From Halobaculum sp. MBLA0147 (lineage in GTDB: Archaea > Halobacteriota > Halobacteria > Halobacteriales > Haloferacaceae): 64,000 nt of DNA. A model generated the notes under the pieces. That model did not search any database, had not been told where the DNA came from, and was given only the letters and a program-made list of their open reading frames with translations. The position numbers were made by a program, and so were the translations under genes. Positions 2,401 through 50,775 of this stretch are shown here, one piece after another. Numbering within the stretch: position 1 is the first letter of the stretch; the number at the start of each line of letters is the position of its first letter. The stretch lies in assembly GCF_041361345.1 (NCBI RefSeq), contig NZ_JBGKAD010000001.1, positions 372,001 through 436,000 on the forward strand, in the 5' to 3' direction.

Positions 2401-3651
2401 TCACTCCCGTGGTGTCGGATCGGCCGCCGGCTCGGGGGGTTCGTCACCCGCGTCCGGGTCGGAGACCTGTGTGTACACCAACACCAGGGCGAGCACGCCG
2501 AGCCCGGCGACGAAGGCGAACGGGGCGACGTAGCCGATCCCTGCCAACACGCCGGAGACGAGCGGGCCGATGGCGGTGCCGAGCCCGAACCCGGTGGTGA
2601 GGATCGACAGCGTCGAGCCGGACTGCCCCTCGCCGGCGAGATCGCCCGCCAGCGCGAGCGACACCGGGAACACGAGCGCGACGGCGAGTCCCTGGACGGT
2701 GCGGGCGACGATCATCCCGACGCTCGTCGTGACGAACCCCTGCACGAGCGTCGAGGGAATCAACAGGACCAGTCCGCCGAGCACGAACAGTCGGCGGCCG
2801 TACCTGTCGGAGGCGTTCCCGATGGGAATCTGGAAGACGACGTTCGCCAACACCGCCGCCCCGAACTGGACGCCGAAGAGGAACGTCGTCTGGTTCAACC
2901 GCTCGTTGATCTGCCCCTCCAGCGTGGCGAACAGCGCGATCCCCATCGCCATCACGACGGTCGCGACGCCGAGGGTGAAGACCGGATCCAACAGCGTGTC
3001 GTCGCCGGTGACGCTGAGTTCCACGTCGTCGGCCGCCGCGGCACGCGTCTCCGTCGGGTCCTCGACGAGCAGGACGACCAGGAGGAACCCGAGCGCCGCC
3101 CCGACGACGGCGACCGCGAACGCCGTGTCGAAGCCGTACGCCTCCTTGACGCCGCCGGCGACGAGCGGACCGACCCCGAACCCGATCAGGCGGAACGTGT
3201 TGAACACGCCGAAGTTCCCGCCGCGCTCGGCCGCGTCGCCCACCTCGTTGACCAGCGCCACCGTCGCGGGGATCGTCAGCGCCGCGCCGATCCCCTGGAG
3301 CGCGCGCAAGCCGGCGAGGGCCGCGTAGCTGTCCGCGAACGGGTAGCCCGCACTGCCGACACCCAACACGGCGAGGCCGGCGAGGACGAACGCCCGTCGC
3401 CGCCCGAAACGGTCGGAGAGGCGTCCCGTGAGCGGCTGGAGCCCACTGTTGAGGAAGCCGAACAGCGAGAGCACGATCCCGATCAGCAGGGTGGTCGACA
3501 GCGAGGCGCCGGCGACCTCGGCGCCACCCTCGCCGACGACGCTGGCGACGTACGACGGCAACACGACGATGAGGAAGGAGTTCCCCAACGAGTCGGCCAT
3601 CCGTGCGAACGCCAGCGCGAACACGCGCCTGTCCGTGTCGAGAACGCCCAT
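2401..3651 (-). CDS. Major facilitator superfamily transporter
   Basis: A 416-residue membrane protein with 12 predicted helices. It has the MFS motif A in both halves: LSDRFGRRRAFVLAG between helices 2 and 3, and ASDRYGRRLFVLGG in the second half. A cytoplasmic acidic loop of about 35 residues separates the two six-helix bundles, and the C-terminus is an acidic, Pro-rich tail. The best fit is a drug/H+ antiporter-like or sugar-efflux-like MFS protein, but the substrate is unknown. The gene stands alone, 82 nt upstream of the leftward permease start. Confidence 0.88.
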   Translation of the reverse strand: MGVLDTDRRVFALAFARMADSLGNSFLIVVLPSYVASVVGEGGAEVAGASLSTTLLIGIVLSLFGFLNSGLQPLTGRLSDRFGRRRAFVLAGLAVLGVGSAGYPFADSYAALAGLRALQGIGAALTIPATVALVNEVGDAAERGGNFGVFNTFRLIGFGVGPLVAGGVKEAYGFDTAFAVAVVGAALGFLLVVLLVEDPTETRAAAADDVELSVTGDDTLLDPVFTLGVATVVMAMGIALFATLEGQINERLNQTTFLFGVQFGAAVLANVVFQIPIGNASDRYGRRLFVLGGLVLLIPSTLVQGFVTTSVGMIVARTVQGLAVALVFPVSLALAGDLAGEGQSGSTLSILTTGFGLGTAIGPLVSGVLAGIGYVAPFAFVAGLGVLALVLVYTQVSDPDAGDEPPEPAADPTPRE

Positions 3652-10552: not shown

Positions 10553-10636
10553 ACACGCCCTGCGGCCCACTGGGACTTCAACGCTCGGCGTTCGACGCAG
10601 GCGGGACACCACTCCGACGTTCCTGGCGGCGACGCA

Positions 10637-10700
10637 CCCGACGGAGACGGCGACGGAACGCCGGATCACCCGACGGAGACGGCGACGGATCGCCGGATCA
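10637..10700. repeat. 32-bp tandem duplication starting at the methyltransferase stop codon
   Basis: Two adjacent 32-bp units, 10637-10668 and 10669-10700, differ at one base (GGAACG versus GGATCG). On the minus strand each unit starts with TGATCCGGCG. The TGA of the first unit is the stop codon of the Rsm22-like gene, so the duplication repeats the stop codon itself. Confidence 0.85.
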
Positions 10701-12134
10701 GCCGACGAAGTCGACGACCGTCTCGCCGTCACAGACGAGGTTGTACGCGCCCTCGTCGTCGTTCCACAGTACGAGCACGTTCTCGAAGGACAACACGCTC
10801 CCGTACGCCGCCGTCGCCAGGTCGTCGTTCAACACCGTCTCGTTCGTGAGCACGGCGTAGTGGTCCACCGTCTGTGAGCCGTCTCCGACTCGGTACAGCG
10901 GGTTCCCGTCCCCCTCCGCGAGGTTCCGCGAGAGCTTACACGCCAACAGGTTCACGCGGTTCGTGACGTGCGTCTCCGACTCCGCGAGTCTCGCGTGTCG
11001 CTCCGCGTTCGCCCGCACCGGCAGCCGCCGCTCCCCGTCCGGTCGGATCAGCGCGTACGCGAACCGGACGCTCGTGTTGCGGAACTGGTCGGCGTCCAGC
11101 TCCTCGCGGTCCGGGAACTCGTCTGGGTCCGCCGCCTCGGCGAGTCGCGCCTGCGTCGCCGGCACCGCGATCGGCTCGCGTTCGTCGAACGACCACCCGC
11201 GGTCCGACGGCACCGCGTCCGGCCACAGCCGCGACGGCGGCGCGAACACCGAGCGGCCCGTCTCCGGGGTCGCAACCGCCCGCTCAACCGTCCGGAGTTC
11301 CGTCGCCGTGGCGAGGTCCGCCGGCGCGAGTAGGAGACACGTCCCGTCGTCGGCCAGCGTCTCGCAGTACCGCTCGACCGTCGCCGTCGGCTCCGCCAAC
11401 TCCGAGAGCACGTTCCCGAACAGCAGGAGGTCGACCGCATCCACGCTGCCGGGGTCGAACGCCTCGGCGGTCGTCCGGTGGATCGTCGTCCGGAAGTTGC
11501 GCCCGGTCTCGTCGAGCACCCGCTCCAACACGTCTGCGTTCGCGCTCGGCTCGACGGCGTGGTACTCCACCACCGCGTCGTCCGGGAGGTAGTCGTGGAG
11601 TGCGACCGCCGGCCCACCCGTCCCGGCACCTACGTCGAGCACGCGGAGTCGTCGCGGCAGCAGCCCCCGCTCGGCCAGCGGGTCGAGCGCGTAGCCGGTC
11701 GCGGCGTAGAAGTCGCCCGCGTGGTAGACCGCGTACGCCAGCGCCGCCTCCGCGTCGTACGACACGTCCTCGCCGCGGTAGTAGGTCTCCTTCAATTCGC
11801 GAATCCGCTCGCGGAGCCGGTAGCCGCTCTCGCCCGTCGCCCAGTCGCGCCCGAACCGCTCGATCAACAGGTCCTCGACGGCACGGTCGTACCGCTCGGG
11901 GTACGCTGTCGGGGCCCACCCGGGAGCCGGTGCCGGCTCCTCGTCGACCGGGACGAAAGTGCCCTCGTCCGTCTCGCGGAGGCCCAGCTCGAACGCCTCC
12001 TCGCGCAGTGCAGTCCTGACGACCGCCGGGTGTGGCTGGGACTCGAGGTACTCGTACACCTCCTCGGGGTCGATGGGCCGCACGTTCTGGAGGTACTTCG
12101 CCGTCTCGCGCAGCGACTCGCGGTCGACGCTCAC
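10698..12134 (-). CDS. SAM-dependent methyltransferase, Rsm22 (small-ribosomal-subunit) type
   Basis: A 478-residue protein. Residues about 165-300 are a class I Rossmann methyltransferase with motif I VLDVGAGTGGP and the acidic motif II EYHAVEPSANAD. The following segment LLLFGNVLSELAEP resembles the Rsm22/mtS15 branch, whose members are linked to ribosome small-subunit assembly. The first roughly 150 residues are a helical, acidic domain that contains LRERIRELKETYYRGEDVSY. The C-terminal about 130 residues carry FRNTSVRFAYALIRPDG. The canonical Rsm22 Fe-S Cys cluster is not apparent, so the function is inferred. Its ATG overlaps the stop of the upstream TyrA-like gene by 4 nt, indicating coupling. 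Confidence 0.75.
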   Translation of the reverse strand: MSVDRESLRETAKYLQNVRPIDPEEVYEYLESQPHPAVVRTALREEAFELGLRETDEGTFVPVDEEPAPAPGWAPTAYPERYDRAVEDLLIERFGRDWATGESGYRLRERIRELKETYYRGEDVSYDAEAALAYAVYHAGDFYAATGYALDPLAERGLLPRRLRVLDVGAGTGGPAVALHDYLPDDAVVEYHAVEPSANADVLERVLDETGRNFRTTIHRTTAEAFDPGSVDAVDLLLFGNVLSELAEPTATVERYCETLADDGTCLLLAPADLATATELRTVERAVATPETGRSVFAPPSRLWPDAVPSDRGWSFDEREPIAVPATQARLAEAADPDEFPDREELDADQFRNTSVRFAYALIRPDGERRLPVRANAERHARLAESETHVTNRVNLLACKLSRNLAEGDGNPLYRVGDGSQTVDHYAVLTNETVLNDDLATAAYGSVLSFENVLVLWNDDEGAYNLVCDGETVVDFVG

Positions 12135-12964
12135 GGTCGATCACCGCCGTCCGGCTCGGCCTCTTCGTCGGCCTCCCGACGCGGATCGAGCCCGTCTACA
12201 CGCTCGCGTGCCCGCTCGAACAGCGCCGCGAACCGCTCGTCGTCGCCCGTCTCCGCCGCCTCGGCGATCTCGGCTGCCGCGTCCGCCACCGCGTCCGCGC
12301 CGTCGAACGTCGCCTGGATGTCCGCGTACACTCGCGGGTCGCCCTCCGTGACGGTCCGGACGAGTTCCGCGAGGTCGCCAGAGACGGGCGTGTGGAAGCG
12401 GTCGTCGACGGACTCCGTCGCCAGCGCGTACGCCAGCACCGCGGCGTGGGCGCCGGACTGGACGCTCTCCATCGCCGTGTCGTGGGCAGCGGCGGTCGTC
12501 TCGAACACCTCGTTGCCGGCATCGGCCATCGCCGTCCGAACCCGTCCGACGGTCTCGCCTGCCTCGCCGGGGACGTAGGCGATCCGCCCGGGTGCTCGCG
12601 GCGGCGCGAACAGCGGGTGGAAGCTCGCGTACTCCGAGACGGCGTGGCGCTCCATCGCACGCAGCGGCGTCTCCATCGTCCCGGCCACGTCGACCACCGC
12701 GCCGGTCGCGTTCGGGGCGTGACTCCGGACCGCGCTCCCGACCGCGGGGATGGGCACCGCGAGCGCGACCACGTCGAACGACTCCCCGGTCTCCGAGGCG
12801 ACGGCCCGCGTCGACAGCGTCTCGTGTGTCCGTCCGACCTCGCGCGCGGCCGCCTCCGCCGCCGCCGCGTCCCGGTCCGCGAACGCCGCCGCGTCGACGG
12901 CCGGCGCGAGCGTGTCGGCGAGCCAGCGCCCCATCTCGCCGGCTCCGACCACTAGTAGTTGCAC
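12131..12964 (-). CDS. tyrA: Prephenate dehydrogenase-like NAD(P)-binding protein
   Basis: A 277-residue protein starting at GTG, which puts the dinucleotide motif LLVVGAGEMGRW at the extreme N-terminus as expected. The catalytic-domain motif YASFHPLFAP carries the His typical of TyrA, and DVVALAVPIPAVGSAVRS matches the Rossmann core. The family oxidatively decarboxylates prephenate (or arogenate) to the tyrosine precursor. Length and motifs fit archaeal TyrA without a fused chorismate mutase. The acidic tail (about the last 30 residues) is halophile-like. It is translationally coupled to the downstream methyltransferase, which is not an obvious pathway partner. Confidence 0.82.
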   Translation of the reverse strand: MQLLVVGAGEMGRWLADTLAPAVDAAAFADRDAAAAEAAAREVGRTHETLSTRAVASETGESFDVVALAVPIPAVGSAVRSHAPNATGAVVDVAGTMETPLRAMERHAVSEYASFHPLFAPPRAPGRIAYVPGEAGETVGRVRTAMADAGNEVFETTAAAHDTAMESVQSGAHAAVLAYALATESVDDRFHTPVSGDLAELVRTVTEGDPRVYADIQATFDGADAVADAAAEIAEAAETGDDERFAALFERARERVDGLDPRREADEEAEPDGGDRP

Positions 12965-13064
12965 GTGTCGTGCTACTCGCGGGGACCGAGAAAGGGTGTC
13001 GGTCCACGGCGCCACACGCCGTCCTCCGCCGGAGAGTCGGGTGGGCGACACCGCAGCGAGGGAC

Positions 13065-13886
13065 CTACTCGATCGAGAGCCCGGCGTGCCAGCGGTCCGC
13101 GCCGGCTTCGGCCTTCACTTCGTCCATCTTCGCGAGCAGCTTCACCGCCAGACTGGCCGTCTCGGCGGCGCGGTTCTCCCCCTCCACCTGGAACTCGCCG
13201 GTCTCGCGGTTCGCGTACACCGTACAGACGGCGCCGGCACGCAGCCCGAAGATGCTCGCGAGCGTGACGATGGCGGACGCCTCCATCTCGATGTTGCGCA
13301 CCTTCGCCTCCTGCAGCTCCTCGACGAGCGTGTCCATCTCCGGCGCCTCGTAGCCGTCGAACCCCGGCCGCCCCTGTCCGGCGTAGAAGCTGTCGGCGGA
13401 CATCGTCACGCCGGTGTGGTAGTCGTAGCCGAGTCGCTCGGCGGCGGCGACCAGCGCCGTCACGACCTCGTAGTCCGCCGCGGCAGGGTAGTCTTCGCGG
13501 ACGTACGCGTGGCTCGTCCCCTCCTGGCGCACCGCGCCGGTGGTGATCACCAGATCGCCGACCTCCATGTCCGGCTGGATCGCGCCACACGAGCCGACAC
13601 GGAGGAAGGTGTCGACGCCGACGCGGGCCAACTCCTCTACGGCGATGGCCGCCGAGGGCGCGCCGATCCCCGTCGAGGTGACGGAGATCTCCGTCCCCTC
13701 GTAGGTACCGGTGAGCGTGCGGTACTCGCGGTGCCGGGCCCGTTCCTCCGCGTCGTCCCAGAACGCCGTGATCGTCTCGACACGGTCCGGATCTCCCGGC
13801 AGGAGGACCGTGTCGGCGACGTCCTCGGGCGACACTTCGAGGTGGTACTGCTCGTCGTCGTTCGGGTCCTCGCTGTCGTCGACCAT
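13065..13886 (-). CDS. Uridine/purine nucleoside phosphorylase family protein
   Basis: A 273-residue enzyme of the PNP/UDP phosphorylase family (hexameric NP-I fold). Diagnostic segments are VLLPGDPDRVETI (phosphate-loop region), RVGSCGAIQPDMEVGDLVI and VRNIEMEASAIVTL, where the Glu-Met-Glu contacts the ribose. It phosphorolyses a nucleoside to base and ribose-1-phosphate. The overall pattern fits archaeal uridine phosphorylase best, but base specificity is not certain. The start at 13886 (MVDDSEDPNDD) was preferred over one 27 nt upstream, because the extra residues are non-acidic. Monocistronic. Confidence 0.87.
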   Translation of the reverse strand: MVDDSEDPNDDEQYHLEVSPEDVADTVLLPGDPDRVETITAFWDDAEERARHREYRTLTGTYEGTEISVTSTGIGAPSAAIAVEELARVGVDTFLRVGSCGAIQPDMEVGDLVITTGAVRQEGTSHAYVREDYPAAADYEVVTALVAAAERLGYDYHTGVTMSADSFYAGQGRPGFDGYEAPEMDTLVEELQEAKVRNIEMEASAIVTLASIFGLRAGAVCTVYANRETGEFQVEGENRAAETASLAVKLLAKMDEVKAEAGADRWHAGLSIE

Positions 13887-37983: not shown

Positions 37984-38550
37984 TCAGTTGCGGTCGATGG
38001 CGGAGAAGGCGGACTCCACGTCGTCGAAGTCCTGAACCGTCTGATCCAGGTTCCCGCGGAGTTCTTCGGCGCGTTCCTTCAGCTCCTGGTACTGCTCGTT
38101 GTCCTCCAACTCGTAGGAGGGCTTCTGTGCCTCCAGGACGCCGATCTTCGAGACGATGGCGAAGTACTCGTCCATCTCGTCGTCGTACGTCTGCCCGACG
38201 AGCTGTTGCTCGATGGCGTCGAACAGCGCCTCCTTCTCGACCGGCTTGCAGAGGTAGTCGTCGAACGGCATGTCGACGATGTCGAAGTCCGGGTCCACCG
38301 CGGTCACCATGATGACGGAACAGTCCAAGCCCCGTTCGCGCATCTGCTCCAACACCTCGCCGCCGGAGTAGTCCGGCATCCGCCGGTCGAGTAACACCAC
38401 GTCGACCGACTCGTCGACGGTCGCCAACGCCTCTTCGCCGCCGTACGCCTTCCGCACGTCGTCGTACTCCATCTGGAGCCGGAGTGCGTAGGCGTCCGCG
38501 ACCTGTTGCTCGTCGTCGACGACCAACACGGTGGGACCCTGGTCGGACAT
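37984..38550 (-). CDS. Response regulator with HalX output domain
   Basis: A 188-residue protein. The receiver domain (residues 5-120) has acidic pocket D12-D13 (VVDDE), phosphoacceptor D55 in VVLLDRRMPD and Lys in LCKPVEKE. Residues about 125-188 match the HalX domain found at the C-terminus of haloarchaeal receivers, a coiled segment with IGVLEAQKPSYELEDN. HalX proteins lack a known DNA-binding domain. The nearest histidine kinase is at 49039, across the giant surface protein gene. The upstream TATA box at 38581 indicates a leaderless or short-leader transcript. Confidence 0.9.
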   Translation of the reverse strand: MSDQGPTVLVVDDEQQVADAYALRLQMEYDDVRKAYGGEEALATVDESVDVVLLDRRMPDYSGGEVLEQMRERGLDCSVIMVTAVDPDFDIVDMPFDDYLCKPVEKEALFDAIEQQLVGQTYDDEMDEYFAIVSKIGVLEAQKPSYELEDNEQYQELKERAEELRGNLDQTVQDFDDVESAFSAIDRN

Positions 38551-38669: not shown

Positions 38670-38765
38670 GTCGACCACATCCGCTCACATCTCGTCGACC
38701 ACACACGCTCACACACCGTCGACCACACCCGCTCACACCCCGTCGACCACACACGCTCACACCTC
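38670..38765. repeat. Four tandem 24-bp repeats upstream of the response regulator
   Basis: Units start at 38670, 38694, 38718 and 38742, each opening GTCGACCAC and ending with CTCACA plus two to four variable bases. Period 24. They lie about 85 nt upstream of the regulator TATA box, inside a gap of nearly 480 bp. Confidence 0.85.
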
Positions 38766-39032: not shown

Positions 39033-42000
39033 GTGCCCGTCCGTGATCACACGTCGCGAGCGTGGAGGCGACTCGTGACATCCACGCGCCGGCTCGCGGT
39101 CGTCGTGGTCGCGTGGCTGACGGTGACGGCGACGGTCGTCCCGTTCGTCGCCGTCCCGGTCGGGACAGTGACCGCGGCCAACGACGGCTGTACGGCACTG
39201 ACGACGGCCGGTAACGACGACGGGATCACGGTCTCCGAGTCCGGCTGTTACGTGTTGGGTCAGGACGTCACGGACGACACCGAGGCACCGACGGTGACGG
39301 TGACGGCAGACGACGTGGTGATCGACGGCGGTGGGAACGTCCTGTCGGCGGCAGCGGTGTCGACGCCGACCGCGACGCCGACGGCCACACCGACCCAGTC
39401 GCCCGTCGACGGCGAACGGGTGGGTGTCTACGTCGACGGCGCGCGCGACGTGACCGTGCGGAACATCTCGACGAGCGGGTACGACACGGCAGTGTACGTC
39501 CAGAACGGACTGAACGTCTCGCTCGCGAGCGTCGCCACGACTGCGTCCGCGCAAGCGGGCGCTGTCGGTGTAGACGGCGCGGAGACCGTCTCGCTCGTGA
39601 ACGCGACCGTCGGCGACGTGTCGGTCGGGTCGGGGTCGGTGAACGTCTCGCTGCGTGGGGTGACTGCCGAGACCGTCGCCGCCAGCGGTGACGGAATCGT
39701 CAACCTGTCGATTCGCGCGAGCGACGTAGGGGAACTCCGGACGAGTGGGTCTGTGGCAGGGGTGAGTCTCCGGAACAGTTCCGCGTCCGCGGTCGACTTC
39801 GCGACCGGGCTCGACGGTGCACTCGTCGTCGACAGTCGTGTGACCGATGGCGGCGTCGAAGCGACGGGCGTGACGGACCTGATCGTCCTCCGGACTGCCG
39901 TAGAGCGCTCGTACGGCCCCGCAGTCGACCTGGAGTCGACCACTCGCGCCACGGTGAGAGCCGTGCAGATAGAGGACGTCCGAACGGCCGAGTCCGTCGC
40001 CGGCGTCGGGATCCGCGTGCGCGGTGACGCCACGGGGACCCGTGTCACCGACACGACGATTCGAGGTGTGCCGGGAACCGGAATCGTCCTGTCGGCCGAC
40101 GGGACACTGGTCCGGAACGTCACCGTCACCGAGACCAGCGAGACCACCGTCGGTCGCAACCCGCAACCACCGACCGCCGACGGCGACGCCGTCCTCGTGA
40201 ACGGGAGCGGCGACTCGCAGTTCGTCGAGACACGGCTGACGGACGTGACGGTGACCGGCACCGCGGGTTCCGCACTCGACGTGACCGGTGTGGAGAGACT
40301 CCTGTTCACGGACGGACAGATCCGCGACACGAACGAGTCGGCGGTCCGTGTCCGCCGGTCCGCGAACGTCACGGTGAACGACACCACCGTCTCGTGGCCC
40401 GAGGCACCCGCTCCGTCGCCCGGATTCGTCTACGTCGACGACAGCGACGGCAACTTGAAGTCGTACGACCGCGGCGGCGACGTGACGGACTACGGCGTCG
40501 GCGACGCGGGCGTGATCGGCCCACGCGCCTTCCTCGACGACGACGAGCGGCGCGAGGTCCCGTACGTCGACACGAGTGGGAACGTGGAGTTGGTCGACGC
40601 GACCGGCGGCGTCGTGGAACTGTTGGGGAGCGGCGAGGGACCGGCCGAGCCGGAGACCTCCAAGAGCAAGCTCGCGGTCGGCGACTGGGACCACGACGGT
40701 GCGACGGACGTGTTCTTCGCGGGCGACGACGGCGCCCTCTACCGCACCGACTGGAACGAGCGTGGGACGGCGGAGGTGATCTCGACGACCACGTCGGTCG
40801 AGTCCGTGCTCGGCGTGGCGGACGTGACTGGGGATGGCGTCCCCGAAATCGTCTACCTCTCACCCAGCGACAGCAACGAACTCCGTGCGGTGAACGCGAC
40901 CGGCGGCGACACGGAGCTCGCGGACGTCGGGAGTCTGGGCGTCGACAACCAATACGGGATCGGTGGCCTCGCACGGGTCGACGGCGAGTGGGTCGCGCCG
41001 CGCGTGAGCGGCGGGAATTCGCCGGAACTGCAGGTGTTCGACGGGAACGGGACCGTCGAGCAGTTGTCGGGAGTCGGTCTCTCGCTCCCGAAGACGGCAC
41101 CCGCTGGGGTGAACCTGTCGGGCGACGCGACGCCCGAGTTCGTCTACCCCACGTCGGCGGGCGGTGTCTCCGTGCTCGACCGGAACGGCGACACGGTCGC
41201 GGTGGAGTTGGGTGTGAACCCGAACCCGTCCGTCGGACTGGCGAGTCGAGCGAGCACACTGGCGGACGGCCGTCGCGTCACCGGTGACGGGGTCGCAGTG
41301 TGGAACTCGACCGGCGACCAGACGACACACGTCGTGGACGTGACCGTCGACGGCGTCGGGACGGTGTCGCCGGCCGTCCGGAACGTCTCGCTGCAGGCCG
41401 AGCGGCGTCTCCCGCGGCCGCCGACGGACACGGTCGTCGCCGCGGACGGTGGCCTGCGCGTGCGGCCCACCGACGCCGACTCGGTGTTCGCGCCCGCCTT
41501 CGGGTACGCGCCGACGGCACTCGTCGGCGTCGCCGAGACGACGACGGCAGTCGGTGCGTACGACACGGCAGCCGGCAGTTGGCGCGTCGGTGCCGACGCC
41601 CTACGGACGGAGCGATCCACGCGGTTCGACACGGTGCGCACGACGGACGCCGTCGGGGTTCCGGCCGTCGTCGCTCCTCTGGCGGGAGCGACCGGCACAC
41701 GCGACACGCGGCGGCCACGAGTGACGGCGTTCGACGCGACGGCGAACCAGACCCTCTCCGTCGAGTTGACCACCGACGAGGTGCTCCCGGACCCAGTCCA
41801 GAACGGCGCCTCGTCGCTGCGGGTCGTCGTCGCCGAGCGGAACGTCTCCGAGAACGACTCGTCGCCGTTCGCGACGCTCCGTCGCGGCGACTTCGAGGAG
41901 TCCGTGACGCAGACCGACGACGGCGTCCGGGCGACGTACACGACGACTGTCGACCTGGGCGGGCTGAACGAGACGACCGACACGCTGGACGTGGTGACGC

Positions 42001-45000
42001 TGATCCTACGCGACGACATCGGCAACTGGGCGCCGGTCCGTCCGTCCGAGACGGTCACGGTGAACCAGATCGACGGAGGCGAAGACGGCGACGAGGGAGA
42101 CGGCGACGGCGACGACGGCGACGGTCCGACGACGCTCGTGGTCGACGCGGACGGAACGTCGACGTACGACTCGGTGAGTCTGGCGCTGCTCGAGGCCGAG
42201 AGTGGTGATCGCGTCGAGGTCCGACCGGGTGTCTACACGGAGTCGATCGGGGTCGACGAGAACGTCACACTCGCCTTCGACGACGGCGCGGTGCTGGACG
42301 GGACGGGGGTCGACCGCCGGTCGGGAATCCTGATCGGCCCGGCCGCCGCGCCGACCGTCGCGGGTGCGACGGTCCGGAACTTCGACACCGGTGTCGCCGC
42401 CGCCGGGACGGCTGGCGACTGGACGCTGCGGAACCTCACGGTCCGTGGCGGTGAGTTCGGTGTGTACGCGGCGGAGACGACGGGGAACTGGACGGTCCGG
42501 AACGCCACCGTCCTGGAACCCGCCGTCGACGGGCTCCTCGCGGCACGGAGCACCGGTGAGTGGACCACCGACGACCTCACCGTCCGGAACGCGAGCGACG
42601 ACGGCGTGGACGCCGAGAACACCTCCGGCGACTGGACGGCGACGGACCTCACGGTGGTCGGCGTCGGCGACGACGGCGTCGAGGTCGACCGAACCACGGG
42701 CGACTGGACGGTCCGGAACCTCACCGTCGACGGTGCAGAGACGGGCGGTGTCGACGCGACCGGATCGACCGGTGCGTGGACACTCCAGGACGCAGTCGTC
42801 AGTGACGTAGACGACGCGTCTGCGGTCGTCGCGTTCCAGACGACGGGCAACTGGACGGTGAGTGGGCTCGACGCGGCACGTCTGGGTGGAAACGGATTGT
42901 ACGTCGAGGACACGAGTGGGGCGTGGACCGCGAGCGACCTGTCGATCCGAGAGACGGCACTTCCGGGTGTGTTCGCCGAGAACGCGTCCGGTGACTGGCG
43001 GCTTCGGAACGTCACCGTTCGCGACGCTGACGACGACGGGCTCGAGGTCGACGACTCCGGTGGCGACTGGTCCGCACGGGACGTGACCGTCGTCGGCGCT
43101 GCATTCGACGGCGTCTCCGTCGAGGGGACGACGGGTGACTGGTCGATGGCGAACGTCTCCGTCCGCTCGGCCGGGATCCACGGGGTCGACGCAGACGGGA
43201 GTACCGGCGACTGGCGGCTCCAGAACGTCACCGCGACAGAACTCCCCGACGGCTCCGGCGTCACGGCGGTCGACGCTCGTGGCGACTGGACTCTGTCCGG
43301 TCTGGACGCCACACAGTTGGGGGGGAACGGCCTGTACGCCGAGAACGCGACCGGTGACTGGACCGCGAGAGACCTGTCGGTGAGTGCCACCACTCTCCCG
43401 AGCGTCTTCGTCGCGAACACGAGCGGCGACTGGCTGATCGAGACGGCACGACTCGACACACCGGGGGCTGCCGGCGTCTACGCCACCGGGTCGGCCGGCG
43501 ACTGGCGGATCGCCGACGCGACCGTCCGTGCCACCACGCCGTTGCTCGCGAACGAGTCCGGCGGCAACTGGACCGTCCGCCGGAGTCGTCTCGTCGCGGT
43601 CGTCGACGGCCCGGTCCGTGGTGGCGGAGTCGACGACGGATCGGCAGACAGTGTCTCCTCTCCGCGTGGCGTCGCGGTGTACGCCCCGAACACGACCGGC
43701 GAGTGGCGAGTGACGCGGACGGATCTCCCGCAGACGGGCGGCGCCGTACCACGGATCGTCGCCGTCGGGGGAGAACGACTCGCGTCGGCGACGCGTAACT
43801 GGTGGGGTCGACCGAGCGGCGCGAGGCCGACCGACTGTGTCGGGCTCGTCGCCTGCGGCGCCCCGACGGCGGAGCCGACGGACGCGGCCGGCTTCGGTTC
43901 GGTGGACGTGCCAGAGCGGACGACCCCCGGCGAGACGCTCACCACGACCGTGGAGATCCAGAACGGCGAACTGCGCTCGCGGACGCTCCGCGTCGACGCG
44001 AACCTGACGAGCGGCGGCGTCGCGAGCGAGACGGTGACCGTGCCGGCCGGCGAGTCGACGACGGTGGCCCTGACCCTCTCGACCGAGGGCCTCGAGGCTC
44101 GCGAACGGCCGTACTCGATCCGGTTCGGACTGTCGACGGAGACCGAGACGGGACGACGGACACTAGGCGTGCGTCGGGAACGCGTCGCCGTCCCGCCCGG
44201 TCGACTCGCGGTACGTGGTCTCCAGCGGCGCGTGACGGCGAGGGCGAACGCGACCCTCTCGACGAAAGTCGTCAACCCCGGCAGTGCCGCCGCGTCCGGT
44301 ACGGTCGAGTTGCTCGTCGACACGGACGGTGACGGCTCGCTGCGCGACGAGTCGGTCGTCGCGGCCGAGCAGGCCGTACTCGACCCGCAGGCGAACCAGA
44401 CGGTGACGTTCCCACTGCCGGAGTCGATCGACGACGCCGAGCGGCCACTGGTGCGAATCGAGACGCCGACGGATCGACGGACGAGGCGGCTCCGGATCAG
44501 CCAACCCGGCCGACTCGTCGTCGCGTCCGCGACGGTGCCGCCGACGAGCCCCGCCGATGGCGACGTTGTCGTGCCGGTGCGGGTCCGGAACCCCGGTGAC
44601 AGTGCGGCGACCGGGAGCGTCGCACTCCGGGTCGCGCCGAGCGGCGAGCCGGTCGACGGCCGCGACCCGGTCGCGACGGCGGACGTGACCGTCCCACCGA
44701 GACAGAACCGGACCGTGTCGCTCCGGTTCGCGACGGGTGACAGAGCGGCCGGTGACTACACTCTCGCCGTCACCAACGGCCAGAGTTCCCTGACACGCGA
44801 GACGACGGTCGCGTCCGGAACCCCGGCCCTGGCGCTCCCGTCTGCGGTCGCGGTCGGAACGGTCGACCGTGGGACGACCACGACGGAGACCGTGACGGTC
44901 GAGAACGACGGCGAGGCGCCGTTGAACGTGACCGGCGTCGCGGTGGTCGGTGCAGACGGAGTGAACGGCGGTGCCACGAGCGGGGCGAGCGGGACCCCGG

Positions 45001-48000
45001 CAGCGAGTCGGGGGCGCGGCCCCGACACCGGAACCGTGGTCTCGGCGACGCTGGCGGACGCCGAGGCGGGCGAGACGGTGACCGTCCCGGCGGGCGAGTC
45101 GACGACGGTCTCGGTGACCGTCGCCGCCGGTGGCGCGGAGGCCGGGCCGGTCCAGGCGCGGCTCCGTGTCGAGAGTACCGACCCGGACGATCCGACGGCG
45201 ACGGTGAACGTGACGGGACGCGTGACCGGTCCCGCGGCGGTCGCGAACCGCCAGCGGGTCCGGTTCTTCTCCCGGGCTGTCGGCTCCACGACCACGCAGA
45301 CGGTGTTGCTCGAGAACCCCGGAACGGAGTCGCTCGACGTGAGCGACGTGCGGATCACGGACGGGGGAGCGGCCTTCTCCGTCCGCTCGTCGCCCGACTC
45401 GATCCCGACCGACGACGCCGGCGAGGTGACCGTCGCCTTCACTCCCGCCGCGAGCGGCGACGTGTCGGGGACACTCGTCGTGGAGACGGACGACCCGACC
45501 GCGGAGACGATCGAGGTGTCGCTGGCCGGTCGTGGGCGACAGGCCGAGGTGACGCTGTCGCGGTCCACGGTCGCCTTCGGTGCGGTCGGGTCCGAGAGTG
45601 CACCCACGGAGACCGTCGTCGTGGCGAACGACGGCGGCGCGCCGGCGACCGTCGAGAACGTCACCCTGACCGGCGAAGCGAACGTCTCGCTGGTGTCGAC
45701 GAACCTGACGGGCGAGTTGGTCCCCGGCGAGCGGCGACCGGTGACGGTGCGGTTCTCGCCGGAAGCCGAGGGTGCTCGGTCCGCGACGCTGCGGATCGAG
45801 ACCGACGGGCCGCAGGGGGCGTTCACCGTCCCCGTCTCGGGGACCGGGCAGGTCGCGGACGCGCGGGCCGTGTCGTCGACGGTGACGACCGGGACCGTCG
45901 GCGTCGGCTCCTCGACGCTCCTGTCGGTCCCGATCGCGAACGACGGTGACGAGACACTCGTGATCCGGAACGCGACGGCAGCGGGTGGTGACGACGGTGC
46001 GTTCGCCGTCGTGACTGCCGACGGGGTCCGCGTCCCGCCCGACGAGCGGCGGACGGTGAGTGTCGCGTTCGCGCCGACGACGACCGGTGAACGCAACACC
46101 ACGCTCCTGATCGGGACGAACGATCCCGACGGAGCGACCCGCGTGGACCTCGGCGGGATCGGTGCGGCGGCCGACGTGGTGTCGGACCCGGCGTCGGTCG
46201 CGTTCGGGCCGACGCCGACCGACACGCGCGTCACCCGTAACGTCACCGTCCGCAACGACGGCGGCGTGGCGGCCTCGATCGCGGACGTGCGGACGACGGC
46301 GGCGTCGGCGGACGCCTTCTCGGTGGTCTCGGCCCCGACCGGCGAGACGCTGGCTGCCGGCGAGTCGGCGACCGTCGAGGTGGCGTTCCGGCCGACGGCC
46401 CGCGGCGAACGGACCGGCGTCGTCGAGATCGCCAACGGGACGGAGACGCTGACGACGGTGTCGCTGGGCGGTGTCGGCGCGGTGCCGAACGCGACGCTGA
46501 ACACCACCACCGTCCAGTTCGCCGACACGCGAGTGCTCGGCGAGTCGCGCGGGACGGTGCTCGTCTCGAACGACGGGAACGCACCGCTGAACCTCACCGA
46601 CACGACGATCGACGGCGACGCGAGCGCGTTCCGGGTCGTCGCCGCGCCCGACCGTGTGCCGGCGGGTGCGACCGACCGGATCGTCGTCGCGTTCACCCCG
46701 CTGACGGCGGGGAGCGAGGGCGGCGCGGCGAGTCGGGCGGCGACACTGTCGCTGTCGAGTGACGATCCGACCGGGACACCCACCGTCTCGCTCGGCGGGA
46801 CTGCGGAGACGGTCGTCGCCGATGTCACGCCGGGGAACCTCACCTACGGGAGCGTCGCCGTCGGCGAGTCGACGCGCGCGAACGTGACGATCTCCAACGA
46901 CCGCGACGCCTCGGCGCCGCTGACGCTGACTGGCGCGAGTGTCGTCGGACCCAACGCCGGCGCGTACTCGTCGACTGGGGCGAACGCCACGACGCTGACG
47001 ACCGGGGGAGACATCGTCCTCGCACCCGGCGAGTCGACGACGCTGAACGTGACACTGGCACCGTCGTCGGGTGGACGGAAGTTCGGCCGGCTGCGGGTGT
47101 TCACCGACGACCCGAAGACCCAACAACTGGACGTGTTCCTCTCGAACACGGAGACGATCATCGACGTCGACACTACGACGGGGACCGGCGAGAGCGCCGG
47201 GGAACCGGGCGCAGAGATCACCGTCCGCAACGCCTCCGCGGACACGACGGTGCCCGCGAACGTCTCCTCGCCGGCGGCGCTGCGGGCCGACGTGGGGATC
47301 GAGAATCTCAACGTCTCCGTCGACACCGGCGGGAACTTCTCGGTGAACTTCTCGCAGGCGGACGACCCGCCCGCGCGGAACGCGCCGAACTTCTCCGGCC
47401 CGAACGGGACGAACGTGGACCCGGTGAAGTACGTCCGGGTGAACAAGACGCTCACCGACGATCAGATCGACAACGCCACGTTCCGACTCCGCGTGAGCAA
47501 GGTGCAGGTCGCCGAGAGCGGGACGGACCCCGAGGAGATCAGCCTCTACCGGTTCGTCGACGACGAGTGGGTGGAGTTGAACGGCACGCTGGTCGAGGAG
47601 ACGACGACCCACTACGTGTACAGTGTCGTCACGCCCGGGTTCTCCGACTTCGCGGCCGGCGCGAAGAAGCCGGACTTCGAGGTGTCGCGGGCCGACGTGC
47701 CGCCGGGCGACGTGCAGGTGACGGCGATCAGAGTCGGCGACCAAGTGGACATCCTCGTCCGGATCACCAACGAGAAGGGTGCCGCCGACGGGACGTTCAC
47801 GACGAAGCTCCTGTTGGACGGCGAGGTCGTCCAGACGCGAGACGTGACGGTCGCCGCCGGTGGGACCAGACAGATCCGCTTCGTGCGGACCTTCGACGAG
47901 TCGGGACTGTTCTCCGTCGAGGTCAACGGCGTGCAGGCGGGTGGCGTCCGCGTCGGCTCCGGCGGTGGCGGTGGGGGCGGTGTCGGCGGCGGCGGTGGCG

Positions 48001-48863
48001 GCGACGCCGAACTGACGTTCCCGTCGACCGACCTGCCGACGGTCCCGGTGACACCCGGCGAGGCGGTGTCGTTGTCCGTCGACGTAGAGAACCCGGGCAG
48101 TACGCCGGCCACGTTCGACGCGCCGCTGACGATCGAGGGTGTCGTCGTCGACGACAGACTGGTCTCGATTCCGGCGGGCGAACGCGTCACCGTCGAGTAC
48201 ACGCGGTCGTTCGCCCGTCCGGGGAACTACTCCGTCTCCATCGGCGAGGCGAACGTGGGGACGGTCAGTGTCGTCGACCCGGCGACGCTCGACTCGACAC
48301 CGACGCCGACACCCGGCAGGAACGAGACGACGACCCCGAGCGGTGAGACACCGAGCGGGACGGCGACCACTCCGAGGCCGGACGGCGAGGGGACGCCGGC
48401 CGAGGGCGACGCGACGGCCACACCGGGCGGTCCGCGGCCGACCGTCGTCGAGGCGTTCGTCGAGACGGAGGAGGCGACCGTCGGAGAGACGGTCGACGTG
48501 ACGGCCATCGTCGAGAACACCGGCGACGGCGACGGGGAACTCACCGTGCCGCTGGTGATCAACGGCGTCACCGTCGCGACACGGAGCGTCGAGGTGCCGG
48601 CCGGCGAGAGTGTCCGCGTGGAGTTCGAGCGGCGCTTCCAGACGACGGGCACCTTCGAGTTACAGGTCGCGAACACCGTCGTCGGAGAGCTGGTCGTCAC
48701 CGAGGCGACCCCGGTCGAGTCGGGGACGGCGACGACGGCCGACCGCACTCCCACCGGCACGACCACCGGCACCGAGACGGCCGCACCCGGGTTCGGCCCG
48801 CTCGTGGCACTCGGCGGCCTGCTCGCCGCCGCGCTGCTCGCGCGCCGTCGCGGGGCGAACTGA
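39033..48863 (+). CDS. Giant secreted surface protein with beta-helix and HYDIN-like repeats and PGF-CTERM anchor
   Basis: 3,276 residues from this GTG. An in-frame GTG 42 nt later would put the signal peptide STRRLAVVVVAWLTVTATVV nearer the N-terminus. Right-handed beta-helix repeats span about residues 90-460. An FG-GAP/VCBS-like part follows (about 470-770, with DWDHDGATDVFF and DVTGDGVPEIVY). A second beta-helix of about 18 repeats holding (S/T)GDWT(V/L)RN motifs covers 1126-1563. Ig/CARDB-like and HYDIN/choice-of-anchor-D repeats run about 1600-2710, then a PGF-pre-PGF domain (2713-2882), CARDB domains, a Gly linker and the tail PGFGPLVALGGLL with RRR. That tail predicts archaeosortase processing and lipid anchoring in the cell envelope. 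Many N-x-S/T sites. The role is inferred as adhesin or polymer-interacting protein. Confidence 0.88.
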   Translation: MPVRDHTSRAWRRLVTSTRRLAVVVVAWLTVTATVVPFVAVPVGTVTAANDGCTALTTAGNDDGITVSESGCYVLGQDVTDDTEAPTVTVTADDVVIDGGGNVLSAAAVSTPTATPTATPTQSPVDGERVGVYVDGARDVTVRNISTSGYDTAVYVQNGLNVSLASVATTASAQAGAVGVDGAETVSLVNATVGDVSVGSGSVNVSLRGVTAETVAASGDGIVNLSIRASDVGELRTSGSVAGVSLRNSSASAVDFATGLDGALVVDSRVTDGGVEATGVTDLIVLRTAVERSYGPAVDLESTTRATVRAVQIEDVRTAESVAGVGIRVRGDATGTRVTDTTIRGVPGTGIVLSADGTLVRNVTVTETSETTVGRNPQPPTADGDAVLVNGSGDSQFVETRLTDVTVTGTAGSALDVTGVERLLFTDGQIRDTNESAVRVRRSANVTVNDTTVSWPEAPAPSPGFVYVDDSDGNLKSYDRGGDVTDYGVGDAGVIGPRAFLDDDERREVPYVDTSGNVELVDATGGVVELLGSGEGPAEPETSKSKLAVGDWDHDGATDVFFAGDDGALYRTDWNERGTAEVISTTTSVESVLGVADVTGDGVPEIVYLSPSDSNELRAVNATGGDTELADVGSLGVDNQYGIGGLARVDGEWVAPRVSGGNSPELQVFDGNGTVEQLSGVGLSLPKTAPAGVNLSGDATPEFVYPTSAGGVSVLDRNGDTVAVELGVNPNPSVGLASRASTLADGRRVTGDGVAVWNSTGDQTTHVVDVTVDGVGTVSPAVRNVSLQAERRLPRPPTDTVVAADGGLRVRPTDADSVFAPAFGYAPTALVGVAETTTAVGAYDTAAGSWRVGADALRTERSTRFDTVRTTDAVGVPAVVAPLAGATGTRDTRRPRVTAFDATANQTLSVELTTDEVLPDPVQNGASSLRVVVAERNVSENDSSPFATLRRGDFEESVTQTDDGVRATYTTTVDLGGLNETTDTLDVVTLILRDDIGNWAPVRPSETVTVNQIDGGEDGDEGDGDGDDGDGPTTLVVDADGTSTYDSVSLALLEAESGDRVEVRPGVYTESIGVDENVTLAFDDGAVLDGTGVDRRSGILIGPAAAPTVAGATVRNFDTGVAAAGTAGDWTLRNLTVRGGEFGVYAAETTGNWTVRNATVLEPAVDGLLAARSTGEWTTDDLTVRNASDDGVDAENTSGDWTATDLTVVGVGDDGVEVDRTTGDWTVRNLTVDGAETGGVDATGSTGAWTLQDAVVSDVDDASAVVAFQTTGNWTVSGLDAARLGGNGLYVEDTSGAWTASDLSIRETALPGVFAENASGDWRLRNVTVRDADDDGLEVDDSGGDWSARDVTVVGAAFDGVSVEGTTGDWSMANVSVRSAGIHGVDADGSTGDWRLQNVTATELPDGSGVTAVDARGDWTLSGLDATQLGGNGLYAENATGDWTARDLSVSATTLPSVFVANTSGDWLIETARLDTPGAAGVYATGSAGDWRIADATVRATTPLLANESGGNWTVRRSRLVAVVDGPVRGGGVDDGSADSVSSPRGVAVYAPNTTGEWRVTRTDLPQTGGAVPRIVAVGGERLASATRNWWGRPSGARPTDCVGLVACGAPTAEPTDAAGFGSVDVPERTTPGETLTTTVEIQNGELRSRTLRVDANLTSGGVASETVTVPAGESTTVALTLSTEGLEARERPYSIRFGLSTETETGRRTLGVRRERVAVPPGRLAVRGLQRRVTARANATLSTKVVNPGSAAASGTVELLVDTDGDGSLRDESVVAAEQAVLDPQANQTVTFPLPESIDDAERPLVRIETPTDRRTRRLRISQPGRLVVASATVPPTSPADGDVVVPVRVRNPGDSAATGSVALRVAPSGEPVDGRDPVATADVTVPPRQNRTVSLRFATGDRAAGDYTLAVTNGQSSLTRETTVASGTPALALPSAVAVGTVDRGTTTTETVTVENDGEAPLNVTGVAVVGADGVNGGATSGASGTPAASRGRGPDTGTVVSATLADAEAGETVTVPAGESTTVSVTVAAGGAEAGPVQARLRVESTDPDDPTATVNVTGRVTGPAAVANRQRVRFFSRAVGSTTTQTVLLENPGTESLDVSDVRITDGGAAFSVRSSPDSIPTDDAGEVTVAFTPAASGDVSGTLVVETDDPTAETIEVSLAGRGRQAEVTLSRSTVAFGAVGSESAPTETVVVANDGGAPATVENVTLTGEANVSLVSTNLTGELVPGERRPVTVRFSPEAEGARSATLRIETDGPQGAFTVPVSGTGQVADARAVSSTVTTGTVGVGSSTLLSVPIANDGDETLVIRNATAAGGDDGAFAVVTADGVRVPPDERRTVSVAFAPTTTGERNTTLLIGTNDPDGATRVDLGGIGAAADVVSDPASVAFGPTPTDTRVTRNVTVRNDGGVAASIADVRTTAASADAFSVVSAPTGETLAAGESATVEVAFRPTARGERTGVVEIANGTETLTTVSLGGVGAVPNATLNTTTVQFADTRVLGESRGTVLVSNDGNAPLNLTDTTIDGDASAFRVVAAPDRVPAGATDRIVVAFTPLTAGSEGGAASRAATLSLSSDDPTGTPTVSLGGTAETVVADVTPGNLTYGSVAVGESTRANVTISNDRDASAPLTLTGASVVGPNAGAYSSTGANATTLTTGGDIVLAPGESTTLNVTLAPSSGGRKFGRLRVFTDDPKTQQLDVFLSNTETIIDVDTTTGTGESAGEPGAEITVRNASADTTVPANVSSPAALRADVGIENLNVSVDTGGNFSVNFSQADDPPARNAPNFSGPNGTNVDPVKYVRVNKTLTDDQIDNATFRLRVSKVQVAESGTDPEEISLYRFVDDEWVELNGTLVEETTTHYVYSVVTPGFSDFAAGAKKPDFEVSRADVPPGDVQVTAIRVGDQVDILVRITNEKGAADGTFTTKLLLDGEVVQTRDVTVAAGGTRQIRFVRTFDESGLFSVEVNGVQAGGVRVGSGGGGGGGVGGGGGGDAELTFPSTDLPTVPVTPGEAVSLSVDVENPGSTPATFDAPLTIEGVVVDDRLVSIPAGERVTVEYTRSFARPGNYSVSIGEANVGTVSVVDPATLDSTPTPTPGRNETTTPSGETPSGTATTPRPDGEGTPAEGDATATPGGPRPTVVEAFVETEEATVGETVDVTAIVENTGDGDGELTVPLVINGVTVATRSVEVPAGESVRVEFERRFQTTGTFELQVANTVVGELVVTEATPVESGTATTADRTPTGTTTGTETAAPGFGPLVALGGLLAAALLARRRGAN
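42410..43725 (+). repeat. About 18 tandem 23-24-residue beta-helix repeats within the giant protein gene
   Basis: Each unit holds a G-(D/N/E/A)-W core followed by two strands, for example TTGDWTVRNLTV, TSGAWTASDLSI and STGDWRLQNVTA. The Trp-containing turn and repeated Val/Leu/Asn pattern indicate a regular solenoid. Confidence 0.75.
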
Positions 48864-48909
48864 GACGGCAGACGACCGCAGCCACCGGCGTCGGTCGTCT
48901 GCGGGTGCC

Positions 48910-49057
48910 GGCGTCTCTCCGTCGGCGTCAGTCGTCGGCGGGTGTCGGCGTCTCTCCGTCGGCGTCAGTCGTCGGCGGGTGTCGGCGTCTCTCCGTCGGC
49001 GTCAGTCGTCGGCGGGTGTCGGCGTCTCTCCGTCGGCGTCAGTCGTCGGCGGGTGTC
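48910..49057. repeat. Four tandem 37-bp repeats spanning the histidine kinase stop codon
   Basis: Units start at 48910, 48947, 48984 and 49021, each opening GGCGTCTCTCCGTCGGCG, with a partial fifth at 49058. On the minus strand a unit encodes GETPTPADD followed by TGA, which is exactly the kinase C-terminus and stop. The other copies repeat this end further downstream. They lie between the giant gene and the kinase. Confidence 0.9.
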
Positions 49058-50775
49058 GGCGTCTCTCCGTCGGCGCCCGTCGCCTCGGCCGCCGTCGCCT
49101 CGCCGTCCGTCACGGCACCCGTCACCGGCTCGCTCGGGGGGTCGAGCGTCACCGTCACGACCGACCCACGGGGTTCGTTGTCGTCGAATCGCAGGTCGCC
49201 ACCGGACCGGTCGACGACCCAGTAGACGAGCCACAGCCCGAGTCCGCTCCCGTGTTCCAGCGAGGTCTCGCGGCCCTTCGTCAGCACGTTCCGTTCCTGT
49301 TCCGGGATTCCCGGACCCCCGTCGGCGACGGAGAGGTACACCGTGTCCTCGCCGACGCCGACCGACACGTCGACGATCGGGTCCTCGGAGTCGTCGTGTT
49401 TGGCCGCGTTCTCGACGACGTTCTCGACGGCCAACTCCAGTGCGGGGCTGGCCTCCGCGGTCGCCGTCTCCGGCACGTCGGTCCGGACGGTCACGTCCGG
49501 GAACTCCGCGGACTGTTCGTCGGCGGTCCGACGGGCGACCTCCGCCACGTCGATCGGCTCCGTCTCGTCGGCGGAGTCGAGTGCGTTCTGGATCTGTCTG
49601 GCCTTCTCGGAGAGGGAAGTGAGTTTCCGGCCGGTGTCCGCGATGGTGTCGGCGGCCATCTCCACTTGCTCGTTCTCCGTCATGCTCCCGGCGATGTCGG
49701 CGTAGTTGAGGATCACGGACATCTCGTTGCGGAGGTTGTGTCGGATCACGCGGTACAACACCTCCAGGCGCTGTTGTCTGTCGCGGAGCTTCGCCTCGCG
49801 GTCGCGGATCCCCTCGGACATGCGGTTGTACCCCTCCGAGATCTCCTCCCACTCCTCCCCGGCGGTGAGGTCGATCTGGTGGTCGTACGCGCCCGACTGG
49901 AGCCGCTCGAACGCGTCGACGAGTCGTTCGGCCTGACGCATCGAGGTGTTGTACTGCCAGTAGCCGAAGCCGACGATCGACGAGAGGACGACGAACAGCC
50001 CGACCCCCTGTGCGATCCCGAGGAACTGGAGTTGACTGTTCAGGTCGGAGGCGTCGCGCGCGACGTACACCTGCCACCCGGTCGACTCGACGGTCGCCCG
50101 TTCCGTGATCTGTGACCCGGTGGCGGTGCCGGCACCGTACACCTGTGTCCCGTCGGCGACGACTCGCACTTCCCGTTCCGAGCCGGCCAGCGGCGTCAGC
50201 GGGTTGAAGAAGGACTGGCGGTTGAGCGTCACCGCGGCGACGAACATCCCCTCCATCCGGCCGTCGAGGATGATCGGCGATGCCACCTCGACGAAGTACC
50301 GCTGGTTCTCGGCCGCGCCCTCGCGTTCCTCGACGTCCGTCACGCAGGTGGCGCCGGTCTCGACGACACAGCGGTAGTAGTCCGTGTCGGCGGCGCTGGT
50401 CCCCTCGTTCTCGCGCAACACGGACTCGGCGATGGCGCCGTCGCTCTCGAAGGCCGTGATCGTCCCGTCCACGTCCACCACCTGCACGGCGAACACGTTC
50501 GACTGCGCACTGCGACGGAGGAACTGGTTGGCGAACGGTTCCGGGTTCTCCAGGTCCTCCCGGTCCGCCCGACTCGTCACGTAGCCGACGAGGTTCTTCT
50601 TCTCGCGGACGTTCTCCTCGATGCCGCCGGCAGCGAGGTTGGTCGCCCGAGTGAGGTCGTCGCGAACGTCCTCGCGCTGTTGCCCCTTGAAGTACTCCAA
50701 CCCCCCGTACGTCGCCCCGCTGAGGACGACCGTGACCACCAGCAGGACGATCGCGAGTTTCGTCCGAAGACGCAT
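49039..50775 (-). CDS. Membrane sensor histidine kinase
   Basis: A 578-residue protein. TM1 spans about 7-25, an extracellular dCache-like sensor about 30-250 (with a Cys pair at C136 and C144), TM2 252-274 and HAMP about 275-325. The dimerisation helix has H346 in YRVIRHNLRNEMSVI, the haloarchaeal HisKA-like site. The ATPase has NVVENAAKHDDSED (N box), VADGGPGIPEQER (G1) and HGSGLGLWLVYWVV (G2). It lacks a fused receiver. The C-terminal nine residues, GETPTPADD, form part of the 37-bp tandem repeat that carries the stop codon. The giant surface gene lies downstream in convergent orientation. A partner regulator may be the HalX protein at 37984. Confidence 0.9.
   Translation of the reverse strand: MRLRTKLAIVLLVVTVVLSGATYGGLEYFKGQQREDVRDDLTRATNLAAGGIEENVREKKNLVGYVTSRADREDLENPEPFANQFLRRSAQSNVFAVQVVDVDGTITAFESDGAIAESVLRENEGTSAADTDYYRCVVETGATCVTDVEEREGAAENQRYFVEVASPIILDGRMEGMFVAAVTLNRQSFFNPLTPLAGSEREVRVVADGTQVYGAGTATGSQITERATVESTGWQVYVARDASDLNSQLQFLGIAQGVGLFVVLSSIVGFGYWQYNTSMRQAERLVDAFERLQSGAYDHQIDLTAGEEWEEISEGYNRMSEGIRDREAKLRDRQQRLEVLYRVIRHNLRNEMSVILNYADIAGSMTENEQVEMAADTIADTGRKLTSLSEKARQIQNALDSADETEPIDVAEVARRTADEQSAEFPDVTVRTDVPETATAEASPALELAVENVVENAAKHDDSEDPIVDVSVGVGEDTVYLSVADGGPGIPEQERNVLTKGRETSLEHGSGLGLWLVYWVVDRSGGDLRFDDNEPRGSVVTVTLDPPSEPVTGAVTDGEATAAEATGADGETPTPADD

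Follow-up and report, generated by a model that had tools for sequence, protein, structure and literature searches.

The window, a stretch of 64,000 nucleotides from Halobaculum sp. MBLA0147 (NZ_JBGKAD010000001.1, positions 372,001 to 436,000), contains a giant surface protein gene (39033..48863, + strand) flanked by genes for a REC-HalX response regulator and a histidine kinase, a context absent from the initial annotation. The gene forms a single open frame (3,276 aa) with a GTG start, and the earlier description of one gene spanning ~10 kb stands. No internal stop codons occur in the 39033..48863 frame, and GC at third codon positions is uniformly high over its full length (0.84–0.93), so the gene contains no hidden frameshift. 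A scan with bacterial promoter and terminator models, applied here to an archaeal host, found no signal.

The outer portion of the encoded protein consists of two solenoids and a propeller (all features of the giant gene are on the + strand). The signal peptide region (39033..39179, aa 1–49) has its hydropathy peak at aa 23–41, and the putative start is the GTG at 39033 or one at aa 15. The first beta-helix (39180..40397, aa ~50–455) is supported by a Beta_helix match in an orthologue and by an all-beta, solenoid-like model of low to moderate confidence. It is followed by an FG-GAP beta-propeller (40407..41312, aa ~459–760), where FG-GAP_3 exceeds its cut-off (29.4 vs 26.9 bits) only in a scan restricted to this segment. 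A modest-confidence model of this part matches LRP-type beta-propellers and Photorhabdus PLL lectins; the resemblance to lectins comes from a model of moderate confidence in which they are found among other propellers. Because the model of the N-terminal part is of low quality (mean pLDDT 61.5), its fold matches serve only as support for the FG-GAP assignment. A tblastn search of plasmids with the N-terminal third of the protein gave no match. An acidic Gly/Asp linker, visible in the sequence as a tandem repeat (42078..42140, aa ~1016–1036), leads into the second beta-helix (42141..43877, aa ~1037–1615), which matches Beta_helix and consists of ~18 coils of ~24 aa with a fixed tryptophan (TGDW), mostly spaced 23–25 residues apart. 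A PDB sequence search with the whole protein returned antibody scFv matches only, an artefact of their Gly-linkers aligning with the Gly-rich linker.

The inner portion consists of a stalk of about six choice-of-anchor-D/HYDIN Ig domains (44910..47252, aa ~1960–2740; Pfam and NCBIfam) and a conserved base module. The first half of the module is a PGF-pre-PGF domain (47235..47702, aa ~2735–2890; TIGR04213), and the second is a CARDB domain directly after it (47703..47942, aa ~2891–2970). The module is modelled with high confidence (pLDDT 91), with part of the model matching the CARDB structure solved for PF1109 (3idu). Two more CARDB domains and a Thr/Pro-rich linker (48012..48698, aa ~2994–3222; CARDB in three stretches) precede the PGF-CTERM sorting signal and its transmembrane segment (48771..48851, aa 3247–3273; hydropathy 3251–3269). 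Matches over cut-off include HYDIN/VesB Ig (8e-48), ASH, three CARDB, three Beta_helix and PGF-CTERM from Pfam, and six choice_anch_D (6e-57), PGF_pre_PGF (2805–2874) and PGF_CTERM (3247–3273) from NCBIfam. Together with hydropathy and fold matches, these uphold the architecture proposed by the initial annotation (signal peptide, two beta-helices, FG-GAP section, Ig-like repeats, PGF-pre-PGF and PGF-CTERM), including the HYDIN and TIGR04213 families that it had singled out for an HMM search. The observations it had named as contrary to its reading, namely a missing PGF-CTERM, missing repeats or a frameshift, were each looked for and none was found.

The C-terminus scores above cut-off for both TIGR04126 (27.6 vs 24.5 bits) and PF18204 (22.0 vs 18.8 bits), and the host genome encodes the cognate archaeosortase A (TIGR04125, E 3e-99). 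In haloarchaea, PGF-CTERM substrates of archaeosortase A are lipid-anchored surface proteins (PMC7157517). The giant protein shares with them a signal peptide, a Thr-rich C-terminal stretch, the PGF-CTERM motif with its transmembrane segment and Arg tail, and an archaeosortase A in the genome, but it is far larger and adds the beta-helices, propeller, Ig stalk and linkage to a sensor kinase. The archaeosortase A gene (G000:C1:1436011-1437254) directly adjoins another PGF-CTERM protein gene, an open frame of 873 aa. The many N-x-S/T sites reported earlier are borne out, with 69 sequons against 22.8 +/- 4.4 in shuffles. This roughly threefold excess arises in part because the repeated coil motif itself contains N-x-T; heavy glycosylation is plausible from the sequence.

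Orthologues of the giant protein are present in two of the three other genomes of the genus, while neither the kinase nor the giant was detected in the third (G001). They retain the N-terminal helix and propeller and the C-terminal half, with 43–57% identity in the longer segments. The middle varies, however: G002 (L028) has three beta-helix segments matching that of the window, where the window has one and G003 about four. Two G003 contigs (C185 and C241) end inside a 66-bp tandem array, 90% identical, in which each unit codes for a single coil, and they are therefore probably the two halves of one gene. This variation in the number of solenoids and coils suggests that the rod grows through the addition of entire solenoids as well as of individual coils. 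A scan of contigs matched a single MAG contig, JAHENP010000092.1, which is apparently identical to G002:C92. Two G002 contigs overlap by 173 aa in the C-terminal part of the giant (L028 end vs L038), of which 166 are identical, reflecting either strain variation or a second copy; on L038 a methyltransferase-like ORF, and no kinase, lies downstream of the giant C-terminus. G003 also carries a second giant surface protein (L132, G003:C415, 1-10323) of 3,441 aa, whose frame runs off the contig and which is adjoined by a PAS-type histidine kinase of 905 aa (10629-13343) unlike that of the window. The base module of this second giant (L031/L132) groups with the window protein on the partner tree, and it was left out of the pair count below. 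In the same genome the kinase gene beside the giant (L030 8465-10185) is split over two overlapping frames, through assembly error or a real frameshift.

In the window, the HalX regulator gene (37984..38550, − strand; PF00072 and PF08663; probable start Met at 38550) points away from the giant gene, and the two have a common upstream region. A short direct repeat (~gtcgaccacac-ccgctcacac, several copies) lies in this region at 38680-38765, upstream of HalX and before the giant gene. On the other side, the kinase gene (49039..50775, − strand) is convergent with the giant gene; a tandem repeat with a 37-bp unit (5.3 copies, 96% matches; 48886-49082) occupies the interval and runs into the 3' end of the kinase gene. 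The kinase has 578 aa, a HATPase_c domain (6e-17), a conserved H346 within the family alignment, and two transmembrane segments (7–25 and 251–269) that enclose an extracellular sensor (50029..50694, −, aa 28–249). This sensor is Cache-like by homology: dCache_1 is matched in 16 of 19 kinase homologues (best 1e-17), although not in the window kinase itself. The linker of the window kinase is HAMP-like, with HAMP matched in only 3 of the 19 homologues.

Full-length homologues of this kinase, in an initial search, adjoin homologues of the giant C-terminal module in G003, G009, G021, G024, G027, G029 (three times) and G052. The sensor alone was also searched against 292 Halobacteria genomes, several of them MAGs with broken contigs, and the neighbourhoods of 40 more hits were extracted. 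Neighbouring modules were detected with an HMM built from 11 sequences, which finds ordinary PGF-pre-PGF proteins as well as kinase-linked ones. The module is directly adjacent to the kinase at 16 loci (L032, L045-L054, L060, L066, L075, L077 and the window), and all 16 kinases fall in one clade of 19 (SH-aLRT 94), with three label changes on the tree against 14.5 in shuffles. Two further members (G213 and G224) have the partner within about 7 kb, bringing the total to 18 of 19; here it lies ~5 kb off, and the stretch in between contains a HalX gene, another kinase gene and an ORF whose end resembles a Bat-type HTH. The remaining member, G205, has no partner nearby.

This linkage is conserved, and it is specific to the one kinase clade. 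It spans long branches, several families and several relative orientations, with kinase and partner convergent at most loci. None of 20 generic kinase loci had a module neighbour, and none of the flanks fetched for 22 other PGF-pre-PGF proteins contained a homologous kinase or HalX. Base-module matches on plasmids (Haladaptatus, Haloferax gibbonsii), which served as further negatives, likewise had no adjoining kinase. Fisher's test of 16/19 against 0/20 gives p=2.6e-8 for a clade defined after the fact. Loci L032 and L045-L051 were picked since both matches lay close, and they are not independent of the linkage; among the ten loci found by the kinase sensor only, seven are adjacent (against 0/20, p=6e-5) and nine have the partner nearby. 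HalX is found near the pairs frequently but not constantly, and is absent near many of them.

Only the membrane-proximal part of the partners is constant. The outer part ranges from almost nothing to more than 2,700 aa, and at the loci found first most partners are of 545–610 aa, with a signal peptide followed by an outer part of low complexity or Ig type, PGF-pre-PGF plus CARDB and a C-terminal transmembrane segment. Short partners of 500–600 aa occur in several genomes and are practical for experiments. The smallest candidate (L077) has 162 aa, consisting of a signal peptide, CARDB and a transmembrane segment. The G213 and G224 partners (L153 2681-4387 and L154 8930-10624) keep the base module and have neither a C-terminal transmembrane segment nor PGF-CTERM, so they are either held in some other way or released.

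Kinase and module show signs of co-inheritance. On the module tree the kinase-linked modules cluster together, with L077 apart, and the groups {L045, L053, L047}, {L052, L054}, {L032, L066} and {L060, L075} recur on the module and kinase trees. Distances between sensors correlate with those between modules (Mantel r=0.62, p=2e-4; 0.60, p=0.003 without a near-duplicate), and part of this correlation is owed to shared species history. However, the three pairs of G029 lie at separate loci, and one of them (L047) groups with L045/L053 in both trees; species history is therefore not the full cause of the correlation.

The retention of base module and kinase gene together across many related archaea suggests a role in signalling, beyond that of a glue-like adhesin. 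The giant protein may serve a two-component signalling locus as its outer component, acting as a partner or co-receptor of the kinase, a reading that stands at about an even chance. Exported through its signal peptide and anchored by archaeosortase A through its PGF-CTERM tail, it would form a rod with the first beta-helix and propeller at the tip, followed by the TGDW beta-helix, the Ig stalk and the PGF-pre-PGF and CARDB base near the membrane. The Cache-like sensor of the neighbouring kinase would project into the same space as the base and could read its state, whether set by a ligand or surface contact at the tip, by tension or by the mere presence of the protein, with the signal passing on via HalX or another regulator. 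We infer the kinase–rod contact, the direction of signalling, a ligand and HalX as the cognate regulator. Exchange or lengthening of the outer parts between species would change what is sensed. More tentatively still, the clade may represent a haloarchaeal family of modular receptors that signal outside-in, each with a dCache-type kinase reading a separate, anchored and exchangeable rod via the constant base; with rods from a single CARDB to several thousand residues, the antenna would be swapped or lengthened and the receiver left unchanged. Against a co-receptor role stand the partnerless G205, the G002 giant contig with no kinase downstream, the inconstancy of HalX and the window kinase without dCache_1.

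In the strongest competing explanation, the surface protein is an output: the kinase would sense something else, such as a small molecule at its Cache domain, and control the neighbouring adhesin via HalX or another regulator. Linkage would arise equally if the kinase regulates a surface gene. Gene adjacency by itself fits this explanation, as do the divergent HalX and giant genes of the window and the tendency of Cache domains to bind small ligands. However, kinase and partner are convergent in most loci and have no common promoter, and a regulated target would not need the conservation that is seen in the membrane-proximal module only. HalX is missing near many pairs, and no DNA binding by it is documented (PMC5847659). 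Regulation of the giant by the kinase has a fair chance but is less likely than the co-receptor reading. The initial annotation saw a surface rod and adhesin. The long rod is a fair inference, whereas the adhesin was an assumption, its one hint being the propeller model that matches lectins among other propellers. The kinase linkage points to signalling, although a signalling role would not exclude adhesion as well. That the protein is only a giant adhesin or S-layer-spanning matrix protein, with the adjoining kinase functionally unrelated, agrees with a domain mix typical of haloarchaeal surface proteins and with the many similar PGF-pre-PGF giants that have no kinase nearby; it is nonetheless improbable given 18/19 linkage in one clade across long branches and several families, against 0/20 and 0/22 in the controls. 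It is more improbable still that the pair is an accessory island whose linkage reflects joint transfer only. The distribution is patchy, with clade members in ~18 of ~300 genomes sampled and neither kinase nor giant detected in one congeneric genome. However, orientation varies by locus, none of the ten flanking genes scanned is an integrase or transposase, and jointly transferred genes usually stay together owing to a common function.

Several bacterial kinases operate with an extracytoplasmic partner, as in LuxPQ, TorT-TorS and CpxP-CpxA. The co-receptor reading would share their logic, in that a kinase sensor reads a separate outer protein, but their partners are small and periplasmic, whereas the giant is anchored, rod-shaped and exchangeable at its tip, and its contact with the kinase is proposed only. 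To our knowledge, little has been established of the extracellular cues perceived by haloarchaeal histidine kinases, or of the role of giant archaeal surface proteins; the kinase–rod pair offers one testable hypothesis for both and a candidate function for the PGF-pre-PGF and CARDB module. It also points to a possible way for an archaeal cell with an S-layer to detect contact or matrix on the far side of that layer. A search of open-licence papers, and so weak evidence of novelty, found no published account of PGF-CTERM or PGF-pre-PGF proteins paired with histidine kinases. The locus resembles the archaeal two-component systems of Halobacteria in which a HisKA/HATPase kinase is combined with a REC-HalX regulator (census PMC5847659). 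This census places Cache kinases almost exclusively in Methanomicrobia, and its searched passages make no mention of a surface-protein partner, whereas here most members of a halobacterial kinase clade match dCache_1 and have such a partner. Taken by itself, the giant protein adds a new member to the known giant haloarchaeal surface proteins. Like halomucin of Haloquadratum walsbyi, it is a secreted, repeat-based haloarchaeal protein of very large size; compared by description, it differs in its domain set and in having a membrane anchor.
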